From assembly GCF_008831075.1 (NCBI RefSeq), contig NZ_WBJX01000003.1, positions 372,001 to 436,000 of the forward strand: a stretch of 64,000 bases of DNA. The letters are read 5' to 3'. A program made the position numbers and the translations under genes. Source of the DNA: Pseudoclavibacter terrae. Lineage in GTDB: Bacteria; Actinomycetota; Actinomycetes; Actinomycetales; Microbacteriaceae. Below the pieces are notes generated by a model that searched no databases, was not told the DNA's origin, and saw nothing but the letters and a program-made list of their open reading frames with translations. This document shows positions 3,653 to 56,081 of this stretch, piece after piece (within the stretch, counting starts at the first letter, position 1; each line of letters starts with the position of its first letter).

Positions 3653-3686
3653 GAAGGGGGCAGTGCGAGATCGCACTGCCCCCTTC
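3653..3686 (+). terminator. Bidirectional terminator between hsp20 and xylB
   Basis: A perfect 16-bp stem (GAAGGGGGCAGTGCGA paired with its complement, GA loop region) lies between the convergent hsp20 and xylB stops. Its symmetry allows it to terminate both strands. Confidence 0.85.
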
Positions 3687-5171: not shown

Positions 5172-5233
5172 GACAGAGCTGGGGCGGATGCAGGCGCGTC
5201 GTTGGACGTGCGAGCATCCGCCACAGCTCTGTC
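5172..5233 (-). terminator. Long intercistronic hairpin between xylA and xylB
   Basis: GACAGAGCTG pairs perfectly with CAGCTCTGTC; after a 2-nt mismatch, GCGGATGC pairs with GCATCCGC, leaving a 22-nt loop. It has no uridine run on the xylA-xylB transcript. It could be a partial terminator, a processing site or a 3' stabiliser of xylA mRNA. A comparable hairpin follows the first gene of the divergent transporter arm. Confidence 0.6.
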
Positions 5234-10821: not shown

Positions 10822-11973
10822 ATGCCCACCGATCGCGTCGCGTCGTCGAACCTCTCCCTCATCCTCGAGCGCCTCCACCGCGGCGGCCAGGCATCCCGAG
10901 CCGAGCTGACCCGCGAGACGGGCCTCAACCGCTCCACCATCGCCGCCCTCGTCGCAGAGCTCGCAGATCGACGTATCGTCGAGGAGCAGGAGCCCGTCGC
11001 CACGAACCTCGTCGGACGGCCGAGCCCCATCGTCAACGTGTGCGACAAGATCGTCGCCGTCGCCGTCGTCCCCGAAGTGGACGCGCTCAACGTCGGCGTC
11101 GTGAGCTTTCGCGGCGAACTGCTGAAGCGCATCCGCTTCGAGACCGAGAAGCCACCGACCGCCAAAGAGGCCGTCGCCATCGTGAAAGCGCTCGTCGAAG
11201 GGCTCAGCGAGAGCCTGGACACCCTTTACGAATGCGTGGGAATCGGCGTCGCCGTGCCCGGCCTCGTCCGCGCCTCCGACGGCTTCGTGCGCTGGGTGCC
11301 CCACTTCGAGTGGCGCGACGTGCCACTCGCCGAGCAGCTGCAGCAGGCGACGGGCCTCCCCGTCCTCGCCGCGAACGACGCCAACCTCGGCGCAGTCGCC
11401 GAGCACATCTTCGGCGCGGGCCGCGGCATCAGCAACATGCTCTACATGAACGGCGGCGCGAGCGGCATCGGCGGCGGCATCATCGCCGACGACCGCCTCC
11501 TGCACGGTGTCGCCGGATACGCGGGGGAGTTCGGCCACAACCTCGTCGCGACCCCCGCCGCGCTCGGCACCTCCGGCGACGACGAACTCGAGCGCGTCGT
11601 CAGCAGGCGCCGCCTCCTCGCCGCGCTCGGCACCAAGAGCGCGAGCGACGACGAGCTGGAGCGCATGCTGCAGCAGAGCATCGACCCGGCCGTGAAGCTC
11701 GAGACGCACCGGCAGCTCGGCGTGCTGAGTGTCGGCGTGCGCAACATGATCAACATCCTCAACCCGGAGCGCGTCGTCCTCGGCGGGTTCCTCGGCGTGC
11801 TCCTCGACCTCGAACGCGACTACTTCCTCGAGATCCTCGCCGAGCACACCCTCGCCCCGAACTACGGCGAAGTCGAAGTCGTGCGCGCCGGACTCGGCAG
11901 CGACCTGCTCTTCATCGGCGCCGCCGAGCTGCAGTTCCAAGCCCTCATCGAGCGCGCCCACCTGCACCGCTGA
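10822..11973 (+). CDS. xylR: ROK-family transcriptional repressor, probable XylR
   Basis: It probably represses the divergent xyl genes until the sugar is bound. ATG 10822 (MPTDRVASSN) follows AGAGGA; the protein is 383 residues. Residues about 10-60 form a winged HTH (SRAELTRETGLNRSTIAALV), followed by a ROK sugar-kinase-like domain with GIGVAVPGLV, ANDANLGAVAEH, GIGGGIIADD and GYAGEFGHNLV. The usual ROK zinc motif (CxCGxxGCxE) is absent after the GEFGH motif; this region instead reads ATPAALGTSGDDELE. DNA binding therefore cannot rely on the standard zinc site. The assignment to xylose rests on gene context. Confidence 0.85.
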   Translation: MPTDRVASSNLSLILERLHRGGQASRAELTRETGLNRSTIAALVAELADRRIVEEQEPVATNLVGRPSPIVNVCDKIVAVAVVPEVDALNVGVVSFRGELLKRIRFETEKPPTAKEAVAIVKALVEGLSESLDTLYECVGIGVAVPGLVRASDGFVRWVPHFEWRDVPLAEQLQQATGLPVLAANDANLGAVAEHIFGAGRGISNMLYMNGGASGIGGGIIADDRLLHGVAGYAGEFGHNLVATPAALGTSGDDELERVVSRRRLLAALGTKSASDDELERMLQQSIDPAVKLETHRQLGVLSVGVRNMINILNPERVVLGGFLGVLLDLERDYFLEILAEHTLAPNYGEVEVVRAGLGSDLLFIGAAELQFQALIERAHLHR

Positions 11974-11977
11974 CGCC

Positions 11978-11995
11978 GCGCGCGGCTCCGCGCGC
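11978..11995 (+). terminator. GC hairpin just after xylR
   Basis: GCGCGC, a 6-nt GGCTCC loop and GCGCGC start 4 nt after the stop; no T-tract follows. It is a weak terminator candidate preceding the repeat cluster. Confidence 0.4.
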
Positions 11996-12063
11996 TTGGC
12001 CGCGACGCCTCGCCCGCGTTTGCGCCGCGCGACCGGCTCGCGTCGCGTGGCGTCGCCCGAGTT

Positions 12064-12127
12064 TCGGGATGGGTTTCTCGCTTTATCGCGGGAAACTTCC
12101 CGCAAGGAAGCGAGGTTCCCATCCCGA
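12064..12127. repeat. 64-bp interspersed hairpin repeat, copy 1
   Basis: This is an imperfect palindrome beginning TCGGGATGGG and ending CCCATCCCGA. The outer arms also pair CTCGCTT with AAGCGAG. Nested inside is a perfect stem GCGGGAA-AC-TTCCCGC. It is nearly identical to copy 2 at 12305. It lies in the spacer between the convergent xylR and fabH genes. Confidence 0.85.
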
Positions 12128-12174
12128 GATTGCGTGTTCGGGCTTGCGGGGCAGATTCCGCTGTCGGCCCCGAC

Positions 12175-12238
12175 TCGGGATGGCTTTCACGCACGCGGAT
12201 GGCTTGCAACCCATCCGGAAGCGCGAAACCCATCCGGA
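12175..12238. repeat. 64-bp interspersed hairpin repeat, divergent copy
   Basis: It has the same length and the same start (TCGGGATGG) as its neighbours, ending in the variant form CCATCCGGA. Here the arms pair GGGATGG with CCATCC and TTTC with GAAA. The inner stem is a different sequence, GGATGG/CCATCC, so structure is kept while sequence changed. Confidence 0.7.
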
Positions 12239-12304
12239 GGCGAGAAACCGGTCCGCGGACGTGGTTGATGGCGGCGTCCGTGGAGTGTCGTCGAGATGTG
12301 CGTC

Positions 12305-12368
12305 TCGGGATGGGTTTCTTGCTCTATCGCGGGAAACTTCCCGCAAGGAAGCGAGGTTCCCATCCCGA
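12305..12368. repeat. 64-bp interspersed hairpin repeat, copy 2
   Basis: It differs from copy 1 at only two positions of the left arm (CTTGCTC in place of CTCGCTT); inner stem and right arm are identical. It lies 48 bp before the fabH stop, on the other side of the divergent copy. Confidence 0.85.
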
Positions 12369-12415
12369 AAGCGGGCCGCCGGGCGGGATCCCGGGGACTC
12401 GGCCGGCGCTCGCGC

Positions 12416-13396
12416 TTACGCGGGGTTGCGGACCTCGGGGAACGCGATGACCTGCCCGGAGTAGCAGAAGCCGCCGCCGAAGCCGAGCAGCAGGGCGGGC
12501 CCACCTGGCTCGGCGACACCGGCCTCGACCTGCTTCGCGAGGGCGATCGGGATGGATGCGGCCGAGGTGTTGCCCGAGTAGACGACGTCGCGCGCGACGA
12601 CCTCGTCGGCGAGGCCGAGCTGCTTGCCGAGGGCGTCGATGATGCGCAGGTTCGCCTGATGCGGCACGAACGCGACGAGCTCGTCCGCCCGCACGCCACC
12701 CTTCGCGAGGGCGTCGATCGCGACGTGCTGCGCCTGCGTGATGGCCCAGCGGAAGACGCTGCGCCCTTCCTGCTCGAAGCGGCCGGAAGGCTGCTGGATG
12801 CGCACCAGGTTGCCGAGCTCGGGCTGCGAGCCCCAGGCGACGGGCGCGATGCCGGGTGTCTCGCTGCGTTCGAGGACCACGGCGCCCGCTCCGTCGGCCA
12901 TGAGGATGGCTGTGGTGCGGTCGGTCCAGTCCATGAAGTCGCTCATGCGCTCGGCACCGATGATGAGGGCACGGCTCGCGGAACCGGCCTGGATCGCCTG
13001 GTCGGCGACGGCGAGGGCCTGGGAGAAGCCGGCGCACGCGGCGTTGAGGTCGAAGGCGACAGGGTGGGTCGCGCCGATGCGCGTCGCCACCTGGGCGGCG
13101 GTTGATGGCGAGCGGTCCATTGCCGTCATCGTGGCGACGATGACCATGTCGATGTCCGAGCCCTGCACGTCGGCGGAGAGCAGCGCCTTGACGCCTGCTG
13201 CCGCCGCGAGGTCGGTGACGCTCTGCCCCTCTGCGGCCAGGCGGCGCTCGCGGATGCCGACACGCGAGGTGATCCACTCGTCGCTGGTGTCGAGAGTCTG
13301 CGACAGCTCGTCGTTGGTGACGACGCGCTCCGGCGACTCGTAGCCGACTCCGACGATGCGCGAGTGCACTGGCTGAGGTTGGGAGAAGGAAAGCAT
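12416..13396 (-). CDS. fabH: Beta-ketoacyl-ACP synthase III, FabH-like (stand-alone)
   Basis: It condenses acyl-CoA with malonyl-ACP to start fatty-acid (or related) chains. The 326-residue protein begins at ATG 13396 (MLSFSQPQPV). It has the complete Cys-His-Asn triad: Cys121 in NAACAGF, His in VPHQANLRI and Asn in YSGNTSAAS, plus the C-terminal GFGGGFCYSGQ. It stands alone between the repeat cluster and a META lipoprotein, not in a fabD-acpP-fabF cluster. It may therefore be an additional copy or serve a specialised primer; whether another FabH exists in this genome cannot be seen. Confidence 0.92.
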   Translation of the reverse strand: MLSFSQPQPVHSRIVGVGYESPERVVTNDELSQTLDTSDEWITSRVGIRERRLAAEGQSVTDLAAAAGVKALLSADVQGSDIDMVIVATMTAMDRSPSTAAQVATRIGATHPVAFDLNAACAGFSQALAVADQAIQAGSASRALIIGAERMSDFMDWTDRTTAILMADGAGAVVLERSETPGIAPVAWGSQPELGNLVRIQQPSGRFEQEGRSVFRWAITQAQHVAIDALAKGGVRADELVAFVPHQANLRIIDALGKQLGLADEVVARDVVYSGNTSAASIPIALAKQVEAGVAEPGGPALLLGFGGGFCYSGQVIAFPEVRNPA

Positions 13397-13514
13397 GATC
13401 AACGCAGAATCCTACCCTCCGGTCAGTGTCTGTCTCTGTGGGTGGTATTCGGAACGTGCGGGCTCGCCGGATTGCCCTAGGCGCGGAGGTGGCGGGCGAG
13501 GATGCGGCGGCCCG

Positions 13515-20386: not shown

Positions 20387-21300
20387 TGCTGTACGCCAAG
20401 ACCAGCCCAGCCGACAAGCGCGCCGCGTTCCGCGCGAGCCTCGCGAGCGGCGAGCTGCTGCGCTTCCCTGGCGCCTTCAACCCGCTCTCGGCCCGCCTCA
20501 TCGAGCAGAAGGGCTTCGAAGGCGTCTACATCTCCGGAGCCGTGCTCTCGGCCGATCTCGGGCTGCCGGATATCGGCCTCACGACGCTCACCGAGGTCGC
20601 CGGCCGTGGCAAGCAGATCGCCCGCATGACGGAGCTGCCCGCCATCATCGACGCGGACACCGGTTTCGGGGAGCCCATGAACGTCGCCCGCACCGTGCAG
20701 GAGCTCGAGGACGCGGGCCTCACCGGCATGCACATCGAGGACCAGGTCAACCCGAAGCGCTGCGGACACCTCGACGGCAAGCAGGTCGTCGACGAGGAGA
20801 CCGCGCTGAAGCGCATCAGGGCGGCGGTGGATGCGCGGCGAGATGACAACTTCCTCGTCATGGCCCGCACCGATATCCGGGCGGTCGAGGGGCTCGACGC
20901 CTCCATCGACCGCGCGAAGAAGCTCGTGGATGCGGGTGCCGACGCCATCTTCCCCGAGGCCATGGCCTCGCTCGAGGAATTCGAGGCCATGCGCGCCGCG
21001 GTCGACGTACCACTGCTCGCCAACATGACCGAGTTCGGCAAGAGCGAGCTCTTCACGGTGCAGCAGCTCGCCGACGTCGGCATGAACCTCGTCATCTGGC
21101 CCGTCTCGACGCTCCGCATCTCCATGGGGGCGACCGCCGGTGCGCTCGACGAGCTCATCAGCTACGGGACCCTCACCGGCAAGCTCGACGAGATGCAGCA
21201 CCGCTCGGAGCTGTACGACCTTGTCGACTACGAGGGGTATAACCACTTCGACAGCGGAGTGTTCAATTTCACCGTTCAGGAAAGGCCGGGTCAACGATGA
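20386..21300 (+). CDS. prpB: 2-methylisocitrate lyase PrpB
   Basis: It cleaves 2-methylisocitrate to pyruvate and succinate. The 304-residue product carries the family active site NPKRCGH (Cys126), the metal-binding segment DADTGFGEP and MHIEDQV. ATG 20386 overlaps the prpD stop, and its own stop overlaps the prpC start (ATGA). The length and KRCGH motif separate it from isocitrate lyase, which is much longer. Confidence 0.96.
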   Translation: MLYAKTSPADKRAAFRASLASGELLRFPGAFNPLSARLIEQKGFEGVYISGAVLSADLGLPDIGLTTLTEVAGRGKQIARMTELPAIIDADTGFGEPMNVARTVQELEDAGLTGMHIEDQVNPKRCGHLDGKQVVDEETALKRIRAAVDARRDDNFLVMARTDIRAVEGLDASIDRAKKLVDAGADAIFPEAMASLEEFEAMRAAVDVPLLANMTEFGKSELFTVQQLADVGMNLVIWPVSTLRISMGATAGALDELISYGTLTGKLDEMQHRSELYDLVDYEGYNHFDSGVFNFTVQERPGQR

Positions 21301-22412
21301 CTGAGCAGGAGATCTACAAGGGCCTCGCAGGGGTGCCCGTCGACTACAGCGCCATCTCGAAGGTCAATCCGGAGACGAACTCGCTGCTGTACCGCGGCTA
21401 CCCGGTGCAGGAGCTCGCAGCGCAGAAGAGCTTCGAGGAGGTCGCCCTGCTGCTGTGGGGCGGCGAGCTGCCGAGCGAGTCCGAGCTCGCCGACTTGGTG
21501 GCGCAGGAGCGTGCGGGTCGTGCGCTCGCGGACAACGTGCGCGCCGTGATCGACGCGCTGCCGAAGTCAGCGCATCCGATGGACGTGGTGCGCACGGCAG
21601 TGAGCATCATCGGCGCCAACGACCCGGACGCGGAAGACCCGTCGGCGGATGCGGAGCTCGCGAAGGCGAAGGCGCTCTTCGCCGCGCTGCCCGCGATCGT
21701 CGCGTACGACCAGCGGCGCAGGCACGGGCTGGAGCTCGTCGAACCGCGCGATGACCTCGACTACTCGCAGAACTTCCTCTGGATGACCTTCGGTGAGGAG
21801 GCTGCCCCCGAGGTCGTCGACGCCTTCCGCGTCTCGATGGTGCTCTACGCCGAGCACTCGTTCAACGCATCCACGTTCACCGCCCGCGTGATCACCTCCA
21901 CGACGGCCGACCTCTACTCGGCCGTCGTCGGCGCCGTGGGTGCGCTCAAGGGGGCGCTGCACGGCGGCGCGAACGAGGCGGTCATGCATACGTTCGACGA
22001 GATCGGCGAGGCCGCCAACGTCGAGGCGTGGCTCGACGACGCCCTCGCGAGCAAGAAGAAGATCATGGGCTTCGGGCACCGCGTCTACAAGAACGGCGAC
22101 TCACGCGTGCCCACCATGCACGCGGCGCTCGAGCGGCTGGTCGAGCACTACGACCGCCCGGACCTGCTCGAACTGGCCGAGGCCCTCGAGAAGAGCTTCG
22201 GCGAGCGGAAGGGCATCAAGCCCAACCTCGACTATCCGGCTGGCCCCGCGTACCACCTCATGGGGTTCGATACCCAGACCTTCACGCCGATCTTCGCGGC
22301 GGCGCGCATCACCGGATGGACGGCTCACATCATGGAGCAGGCGGCGGCCAACTCGCTCATCCGCCCGCTTGCGGTCTACAACGGCGTCGACGAGCGTCAC
22401 CTCGACGGCTGA
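21297..22412 (+). CDS. prpC: 2-methylcitrate synthase PrpC
   Basis: It condenses propionyl-CoA with oxaloacetate. The 371-residue citrate-synthase fold protein has the histidine motifs GALHGGANEAVM and GFGHRVYKNGDSRVP and the catalytic Asp in NLDYPAGPAYHLMGF. The shorter length and operon position favour methylcitrate over citrate synthase. It closes the regulator-prpD-prpB-prpC unit; a 64-bp hairpin repeat lies 26 bp after the stop. Confidence 0.95.
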   Translation: MTEQEIYKGLAGVPVDYSAISKVNPETNSLLYRGYPVQELAAQKSFEEVALLLWGGELPSESELADLVAQERAGRALADNVRAVIDALPKSAHPMDVVRTAVSIIGANDPDAEDPSADAELAKAKALFAALPAIVAYDQRRRHGLELVEPRDDLDYSQNFLWMTFGEEAAPEVVDAFRVSMVLYAEHSFNASTFTARVITSTTADLYSAVVGAVGALKGALHGGANEAVMHTFDEIGEAANVEAWLDDALASKKKIMGFGHRVYKNGDSRVPTMHAALERLVEHYDRPDLLELAEALEKSFGERKGIKPNLDYPAGPAYHLMGFDTQTFTPIFAAARITGWTAHIMEQAAANSLIRPLAVYNGVDERHLDG

Positions 22413-22438
22413 CCCGCGGCCGGGCCTCGCTCGACGAC

Positions 22439-22502
22439 TCGGGATGGGTATGTCCCTTCGTGTTGGGGAACTTCCCGCAACAAAGGGATGTTTCCAGCCG
22501 GA
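22439..22502. repeat. 64-bp interspersed hairpin repeat, copy 4 (prpC downstream)
   Basis: It starts TCGGGATGGG and is 64 bp long like the three copies near 12.1 kb, ending CCGGA. The outer stem uses GTCCCTT/AAGGGAT where copy 1 has CTCGCTT/AAGCGAG, including one compensatory pair change. The inner AACTTCCCGCAA is conserved. It again lies in a convergent spacer. Confidence 0.78.
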
Positions 22503-22544
22503 GCGTCGAAGATGCCTCGATCGGGGCCGCGCGTGCGGCGTCGA

Positions 22545-22883
22545 TCAGCGCGGACGGATGCTGGCCGACGTCTCGAGAAGCCTCGGCGCCTCGAGACGAT
22601 ACAGCCCCCACGTGCCGCTGCGCTCATAGCTGAGGTACCCGCCGTCGACGAGGACCCGCAGGTGGTGCGAGGCCGTGGACTGCGCGCATCCGAGAGCAGC
22701 CACTAGCTCGGTCACCGTCGTCGGCCGATCGGGATTCGCCGCGACGAGCGAGAGGATGCGCAGCCTTGTCGGGTCGGCGAGCACCTGGAGTCCGTGGGCG
22801 AGCGCGTTGGCGCTCGCAGCGTCGAGCGGAGCCGCGGAAGCGGCACCGGGCCACGCGAAATCAGGAGTCGGCGTCACGACCAC
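22545..22883 (-). CDS. ArsR-family winged-helix regulator
   Basis: This is a 112-residue DNA-binding protein. The core ADPTRLRILSLVAANPDRP, TVTELVAALGCAQSTASHHL and the wing GGYLSYERSGTWGLYRL define the ArsR fold. The metal motif ELCVCDL is absent and only one Cys is present, so classical arsenic or metal sensing is unlikely. GTG 22883 (or 22877) starts within the last codons of the MarR gene, an overlap of about 23 nt, so the two regulators are probably co-transcribed. Confidence 0.82.
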   Translation of the reverse strand: MVVTPTPDFAWPGAASAAPLDAASANALAHGLQVLADPTRLRILSLVAANPDRPTTVTELVAALGCAQSTASHHLRVLVDGGYLSYERSGTWGLYRLEAPRLLETSASIRPR

Positions 22884-55907: not shown

Positions 55908-56081
55908 GCGCCCATTCTCTCGCTCTTCTCGATGGCTGGCGCGGCGGCCACTGGTCCGAGCCGCAGCTGCTGGTTCGTGCCGCTGTCGCGCCGGACGGGA
56001 ACAAGCGGTCGAGCTGGGTGCGATCCGTCCGGATCGCGCTAGGCTGGGGCATCGATCCGTCACACCGGACGCGAAACCCTT

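Follow-up and report, generated by a model that had tools for sequence, protein, structure and literature searches.

The window, a 64,000-nucleotide stretch of Pseudoclavibacter terrae DNA, raises a simple question: what is a palindrome of 64 bp that occurs three times in one intergenic spacer and once more in another? The proposal came from a sequence-only reading, which described four elements of exactly 64 bp with a common start and a complementary end, and all four were found where it placed them (Table 1).

Four palindromes between tail-to-tail genes

Each element starts with TCGGGATGG. Elements 1 and 3 end in its exact complement, element 2 terminates in CCATCCGGA (one mismatch to that complement) and element 4 in CCAGCCGGA (two mismatches). 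The inner stems are as first described (GCGGGAA/TTCCCGC and GGATGG/CCATCC), and so is the outer pair 17/48, which is G-C in elements 1-3 and C-G in element 4; the C-G form, at columns 19/50 of the alignment used below, was present in 1 of 61 distinct P. terrae copies. All four elements lie between tail-to-tail genes, the first three between a ROK-family gene and a FabH-like gene (with an alternative longer start at 13402 in the ORF list), and the fourth between genes for citrate synthase and an ArsR-type regulator, the latter overlooked by our custom codon-usage gene caller.

Folded as 70-nt segments, elements 1 to 4 gave -48.9, -37.7, -41.6 and -35.2 kcal/mol, respectively (z -8.1, -5.1, -7.1 and -4.0), and for each element none of 200 shuffles was as stable. 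The label "double hairpin" given to them was correct in that outer and inner stems are both present, but these belong to one long hairpin and not to two separate ones. In a scan of window positions 11900-12500, elements 1-3 showed neither a T-tract nor a terminator consensus; the GC-rich stem of an intrinsic terminator is present there, with no terminator-like site in which a U-tract follows it. Membership of an Rfam RNA family was rejected, as no covariance model matched at its gathering score over the whole window, and two miRNA models that matched around elements 1-3 fell far under theirs. An uptake signal was likewise rejected because exact TCGGGATGG occurs just once outside the elements in the window.

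Two other inverted repeats were noted in the window. One, at 3653-3686, is a perfect 16-bp inverted repeat with a 2-nt loop between convergent genes and resembles an ordinary end hairpin. The other, at 5172-5233, is a 29-bp inverted repeat, 86% complementary, between two minus-strand genes, and has no TCGGGATGG box.

Table 1. Palindromic elements, their neighbouring genes and subfamily C copies. The first eight rows give window positions; P. terrae (G000) subfamily C copies are given by contig.
Feature	Position	Strand	Remarks
Element 1	12061-12130 (64-bp core 12064-12127)	.	Subfamily A
Element 2	12172-12241 (core 12175-12238)	.	Subfamily B
Element 3	12302-12371 (core 12305-12368)	.	Subfamily A; 96% identity with element 1 over 67 nt
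Element 4	22436-22505 (core 22439-22502)	.	Diverged subfamily A
ROK-family gene	10822-11973	+	Reads into elements 1-3
FabH-like 3-oxoacyl-ACP synthase III gene	12416-13369	-	Opposite side; reads into elements 1-3
Citrate synthase gene	21297-22412	+	Reads into element 4
ArsR-type regulator gene	22545-22883	-	Opposite side; reads into element 4; basis ORF and Pfam
Subfamily C, P. terrae	C9:52877-52936
Subfamily C, P. terrae	C1:160013-160071
Subfamily C, P. terrae	C5:55508-55569
Subfamily C, P. terrae	C5:28870-28931
Subfamily C, P. terrae	C4:115683-115744
Subfamily C, further loci	L212-L218

Copy number and anatomy of the family

The P. terrae genome (3.91 Mb, 11 contigs) was searched with element 1 as query, which returned 117 matches at E ≤ 10, with many sites matched on both strands. 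In 35 regions retrieved from the vicinity of these matches, the profile finds 66 copies, against none in a base shuffle of the same regions. A covariance model of subfamily B added eight regions, five of which contain seven extra copies by profile; in this model (R1) two innermost pairs were misplaced in the structure string, and copies were still found. The genome thus holds 73 copies by profile in 42 spacers, and the proposed repeat is neither a chance pattern nor a matter of a few copies. Three of the 73 score below 45, the lowest (L192:3012, at 26.4) being aligned by the B model at 67 positions rather than 68. Among the three extra regions without a profile match, L191 has a variant shortened by about 5 nt, and L193 and L194 carry subfamily C. 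At least seven P. terrae places have a length other than 68 under the B model, some of them subfamily C or damaged copies, with 150 of 2185 candidates scored.

Copies are often grouped. Eighteen of the 42 groups contain more than one copy, 15 contain both A and B, and a single P. terrae spacer can hold up to six; at locus L043, four copies repeat with a 102-bp period, indicating tandem duplication.

The conserved unit spans about 70 bp around a 64-bp core and folds into a single long stem carrying an outer and an inner pair of boxes; 63 copies could be aligned gap-free over 68 columns. Weak conservation, (G)TY...RA(C), extends about 3 nt past each core end and then stops. The 73 copies split into subfamily A (33), with the inner stem GGGAA/TTCCC, and subfamily B (40), with GGATGG/CCATCC. 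The two have in common the outer TCGGGATGG/CCATCCCGA and an inner GG/CC core, with mostly CTTC/GAAG between them. Of the 80 arms of subfamily B, 66 have two GATGG boxes, and in all 66 the second one stands 19 nt inward; in subfamily A the inner GATGG box is lost or degenerate, and one spacing was countable.

A pattern search identified a third subfamily, C, with the form TGATGGGTTT...AAACCCATCA and a layout similar to that of A and B, at 17 places in five genomes. Ten of these are palindromes of 59-60 bp, and seven are 62 bp long with a shifted layout. In ten copies chosen from the 17 places, all 16 countable box spacings were 19 or 20. Some C copies have three consecutive GATGGG boxes. Flanks were called for three P. 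terrae copies of this subfamily (those on C9, on C1 and at C5:55508), all of which lie between convergent genes; some copies in other genomes do not.

Location relative to genes

In P. terrae, 27 of the 42 element-bearing spacers are convergent, 15 are codirectional and none is divergent, as compared to 54, 127 and 60, respectively, of 241 background spacers drawn from 18 element-free 20-kb stretches that were picked by hand from this genome. Both the convergent excess (p 7e-9) and the divergent deficit (p 8e-6) depend on gene calls from a codon-usage caller written for this analysis and unchecked against the official annotation, and the convergent count includes L043, a doubtful case in which a called gene spans the array. 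The 74 spacers of other species divide into 46 convergent, 27 codirectional and 1 divergent. The sole copy in a called divergent spacer (L094:3763-3830, P. helvolus) has an orthologous stretch in the window, at about 55926-56011, that is without the element. The suspected bias toward tail-to-tail spacers is therefore strong, but the claim that the elements are confined to such spacers and never lie upstream of genes went too far, given the 15 codirectional spacers and the divergent one in P. helvolus. The median distance to a stop codon is 59 bp (68 distances, one negative value dropped) and that to a start codon is 109 (15 distances).

Element-free convergent spacers carry strong hairpins as well: their best 70-nt minimum free energy was 7.9 kcal/mol under that of shuffled sequence (n = 33), versus 1.0 for divergent spacers (n = 66), in a folding done on the plus strand only, for which reason the "++" and "--" classes are not comparable. 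The element thus occupies the niche of ordinary end hairpins. With the elements cut out, stems of at least nine pairs were left in 5 of 26 convergent element spacers and occur in 21 of 59 element-free ones (p 0.20); in codirectional spacers the counts were 5 of 15 and 25 of 164, so that such stems are if anything commoner with the element. These counts do not support replacement of a terminator by the element. A separate hairpin of the ordinary kind, conserved and with compensating changes, is present in one orthologous spacer (L131:1100-1500 and L206:2401-2700). It stands beside the element in Pseudoclavibacter sp. RFBB5 and beside a remnant in P. terrae, where only a fragment of the element is retained.

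Distribution and turnover

The B model, run with stricter filters on 60 genomes, matched five, all among the ten of the same genus, and gave no match in the 50 genomes of 48 other genera. The A model, run within the ten genus genomes, matched the same five, and the C pattern marks those five as well, with no match to its reversed control in any of the ten. One of the five negative genus genomes (G005) is only 83% complete. Named carriers among the matches listed are P. helvolus DSM 20419 and Pseudoclavibacter sp. RFBB5, AY1H1 and AY1F1; judging by equal element scores and alignments, genomes G001, G004, G006 and G007 appear to be P. helvolus, RFBB5, AY1F1 and AY1H1, respectively, or very close strains. 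Both-strand matches to the A model at E ≤ 1e-9 numbered 65 in P. terrae, 67 in G004, 19 in G001, 17 in G007 and 6 in G006, and those to the B model 69, 36, 73, 77 and 41 in the same order. Some A matches in G001, G007 and G006 coincide with B matches, so subfamily A is rarer there than its counts say. The P. terrae/G004 line is accordingly far richer in subfamily A, for which a gain in that line would be the simplest account. The outer-arm pattern alone occurs in at least 95 stretches, and 13 of the 80 loci listed for it are from outside Pseudoclavibacter; none of these 13 contains the element by profile, nor does one viral contig with the pattern.

Element-bearing loci tend to recur at the same places. 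Of the 35 P. terrae regions, 33 align for 250 bp or more with a locus in another species that bears an element, the loci compared having been fetched for their elements. The citrate synthase locus differs between genomes: in a scan of the gene with flanks of up to 1.5 kb, the element was present by profile in P. terrae and G004 and absent in the other seven genus genomes with the gene, three of which (G001, G006 and G007) have family members at other loci; G009 gave no match to the gene at the threshold applied. Two presence/absence cases between P. terrae and RFBB5 have ragged edges with no target duplication seen. In one of them P. terrae retains GTCTCGGGATGG but not the rest of the element, which makes loss likelier there. 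An orthologous spacer (L039:2999, L132:6196 and L140:4469) holds subfamily A in P. terrae and subfamily B in P. helvolus and AY1F1.

Rates were compared between P. terrae and RFBB5/G004 over 15 hand-chosen locus pairs with 21 paired copies. Third codon positions were 0.860 identical and the first two positions 0.980, as compared to 0.883 for the element interior and 0.836 for the rest of the aligned spacer; the interior therefore changes at nearly the rate of third codon positions. The outer arms were 0.960 identical, a value inflated because the RFBB5 loci had been fetched by exact outer arms. Adjoining spacer contributed 587 gap columns to 1322 aligned ones, and the paired copies contributed none, in a count that copies with indels could not enter.

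Maintenance of pairing

When 61 distinct copies were laid out on the symmetric hairpin, 191 cells were changed on both sides, as compared to 101 in column shuffles. Subfamily B alone gave 46 such changes against 28, and subfamily A alone gave 31 against 28.5, which is not significant. Because related sequences inflate the column-shuffle control, orthologous copies were compared instead. The pairs came from 41 locus pairs, hand-chosen for matching flanks and covering 28 of the 35 P. terrae regions; each copy was matched to its most identical counterpart, a choice biased towards similar pairs, and two type-switch comparisons, both at L039, were excluded from the permutation test. Among 31 pairs between P. 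terrae and RFBB5/G004, two-arm changes numbered 24 versus 15.4 when permuted (21 of 2000 permutations as high), and changes from one Watson-Crick pair to another 5 versus 3.1 (386 of 2000, not significant). The excess was larger in 20 pairs with more distant species, at 46 versus 32.2 for two-arm changes and 25 versus 12.6 for Watson-Crick to Watson-Crick changes, with no permutation of 2000 as high in either case. It persisted when one pair was kept per P. terrae locus (14 pairs; 31 versus 20.6, 2 of 2000 as high, and 16 versus 8.8, 6 of 2000 as high).

The suggestion that structure is preserved while sequence varies consequently stands between subfamilies and between distant orthologues, but within subfamily A, and for pair restoration between the nearest species, the signal is not significant. 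On the sense strand of codirectional spacers, pooled over P. terrae and other species, G-U (62) was no commoner than A-C (69; p 0.60), and selection on an RNA stem is therefore not indicated.

Comparison with known repeats

Dispersed imperfect extragenic palindromes that form clusters and tandem arrays are described as REP, BIME and REPIN sequences in Escherichia coli, Pseudomonas and Stenotrophomonas (PMC3733652, PMC3116915, PMC2817692), and the family is alike in these respects. Like a REPIN, each element consists of two inverted halves that form a hairpin, with multi-copy groups and the tandem unit at L043 paralleling REPIN/BIME organisation; like REPs, it is intergenic and sits mostly in convergent or codirectional spacers. 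It differs in size, as accounts of REPs give lengths of 20-40 bp (PMC3733652) or about 20-60 bp (PMC3116915), and this element is a single stem of nearly fixed length that exceeds both. Actinobacteria do not appear among the phyla listed for GTAG or CGTC repeats in the available text of PMC3733652. The GTAG tag occurred at none of 146 element ends. CGTC was found at 20 of the 146, with its GTC mostly paired; the GT[TC]/[AG]AC flanks are complementary, and CGTC is therefore not an unpaired end tag. The Y1_Tnp domain (PF01797) gave no hit in the P. terrae genome at E ≤ 10 and none in the ten genus genomes at E ≤ 0.001; among 14 control genomes, 5 were positive. The suggested search for a RAYT-like gene thus yielded no Y1/RAYT transposase in the genus, and a RAYT-mobilised REP was rejected. 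With neither end tag nor RAYT found, the family is not placed in the GTAG or CGTC REP superfamilies.

Other small repeats were also considered. ERIC/IRU, Correia/NEMIS, RUP and similar elements have unrelated hosts and are not known to share the family's sequence or length, and the R'/R'' boxes of integron attC sites presumably do not fit the element ends. The former resemble the family in being small, mainly intergenic palindromes without a transposase of their own (PMC2229807). Bidirectional intrinsic terminators of Bacillus cereus are likewise hairpins between convergent genes with pair-preserving changes (PMC5381666); unlike them, the family has no U-tract at elements 1-3, and it has a conserved primary sequence, changes in copy number and often several copies per spacer. 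No description of the family was found in the open-licence PMC papers searched. The genome note on P. helvolus G8 and W3 (PMC4816609) mentions, in its available text, only predicted CRISPR elements. Speculatively, tandem arrays of a palindrome, such as that at L043, could be misread as CRISPR by a predictor.

The impression that no described family matches is accordingly borne out for the sequence, within the open-licence search, but in its architecture, clustering, tandem expansion and location the family follows the known REP/BIME pattern. The family is very probably a dispersed palindromic repeat of the REP kind; it resembles REPs in clustering, location and turnover, but falls outside the GTAG and CGTC superfamilies.

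Discussion

The preferred reading, to which we assign a probability of about 0.5, is a non-autonomous, RAYT-less palindromic repeat, so far of one Pseudoclavibacter clade, that is kept at gene 3' ends as a putative two-way transcript-end structure. Its spread and retention are documented by comparison. Species differ in copy number and in the spacers occupied, units multiply in tandem within a spacer, element-bearing loci recur at corresponding places between species, and pairing is maintained through paired changes. Once transcribed, the stem-loop may act in both directions as a termination aid or a block to 3' exonucleases. Copies inside genes or promoters would be removed by selection, and those at the ends of coding strands would mainly persist because the stem-loop works both ways there. 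Proximity to stop codons, the strong hairpins of element-free convergent spacers and the maintained pairing favour the view that the stem-loop probably serves as a two-way transcript-end structure. Counting against it are the missing T-tract, the lack of a G-U bias, multi-copy spacers, the residual stems of codirectional spacers and the separate hairpin at L131/L206; six copies in a spacer are more than an end signal requires.

Several of these points also fit a purely selfish repeat, which is less likely but quite possible. Such an element would land anywhere, its copies in 3' spacers would survive because they are least harmful there, and pairing would be kept by template switching between the arms of the quasi-palindrome during replication. 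Template switching creates and maintains hairpins (PMC8794818), and as a known means of hairpin-arm repair it could be an alternative source of the covariation and account for kept pairing without function; in some orthologues the two-arm changes do form an adjacent run, for example columns 14-17 in L064/L083. Interior identity near that of third codon positions, the even G-U and A-C counts, the arrays of up to six copies and the five of ten genus genomes in which the family was not found all agree with this. The near-identity of the outer boxes argues the other way, though at a value inflated by the exact-arm retrieval, as do the shared positions of element-bearing loci across species and the greater closeness of copies to stops than to starts. 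Movement in trans by an ordinary DDE transposase, which would make the family MITE-like with long terminal inverted repeats, is very improbable: lineage-specific presence at the citrate synthase locus (P. terrae and G004 only, of nine genus genomes with the gene) speaks for it, but the ragged edges without target duplication in the two cases examined speak against it. Nor was a separate pair of ends seen in the P. terrae genome, where the checked cluster starts and outliers of the 117 matches all fell within the 35 fetched regions.

The mirrored GATGG boxes, two per arm and about 19-20 nt apart, raise the idea of binding arrays for a dedicated DNA-binding protein, with hairpin geometry setting the phase. 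The constant spacings in B and C and the marking of the same five genomes by the A, B and C searches suit this, but the inner box is lost in A, 7 of the 17 C places have a shifted layout, and fixed spacing is also expected from common descent; we regard the idea as improbable. The same layout, with its degenerate inner box in A, and the identical set of five genomes also underlie a rather unlikely broader scheme, in which A, B and C would form one modular palindrome system on GATGG boxes, spread by non-Y1 machinery that recognises the boxes. The further notion that this machinery exchanges copies in place derives from the L039 spacer, with A in P. terrae where two other species have B.

While the best-studied REP families are tied to RAYT, the Pseudoclavibacter family behaves similarly without a recognisable one. 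Carriers and non-carriers within one actinobacterial genus provide a natural comparison for the spread and possible role of such a repeat, and its many orthologous hairpins offer a chance to separate selection for pairing from template-switch mutation.
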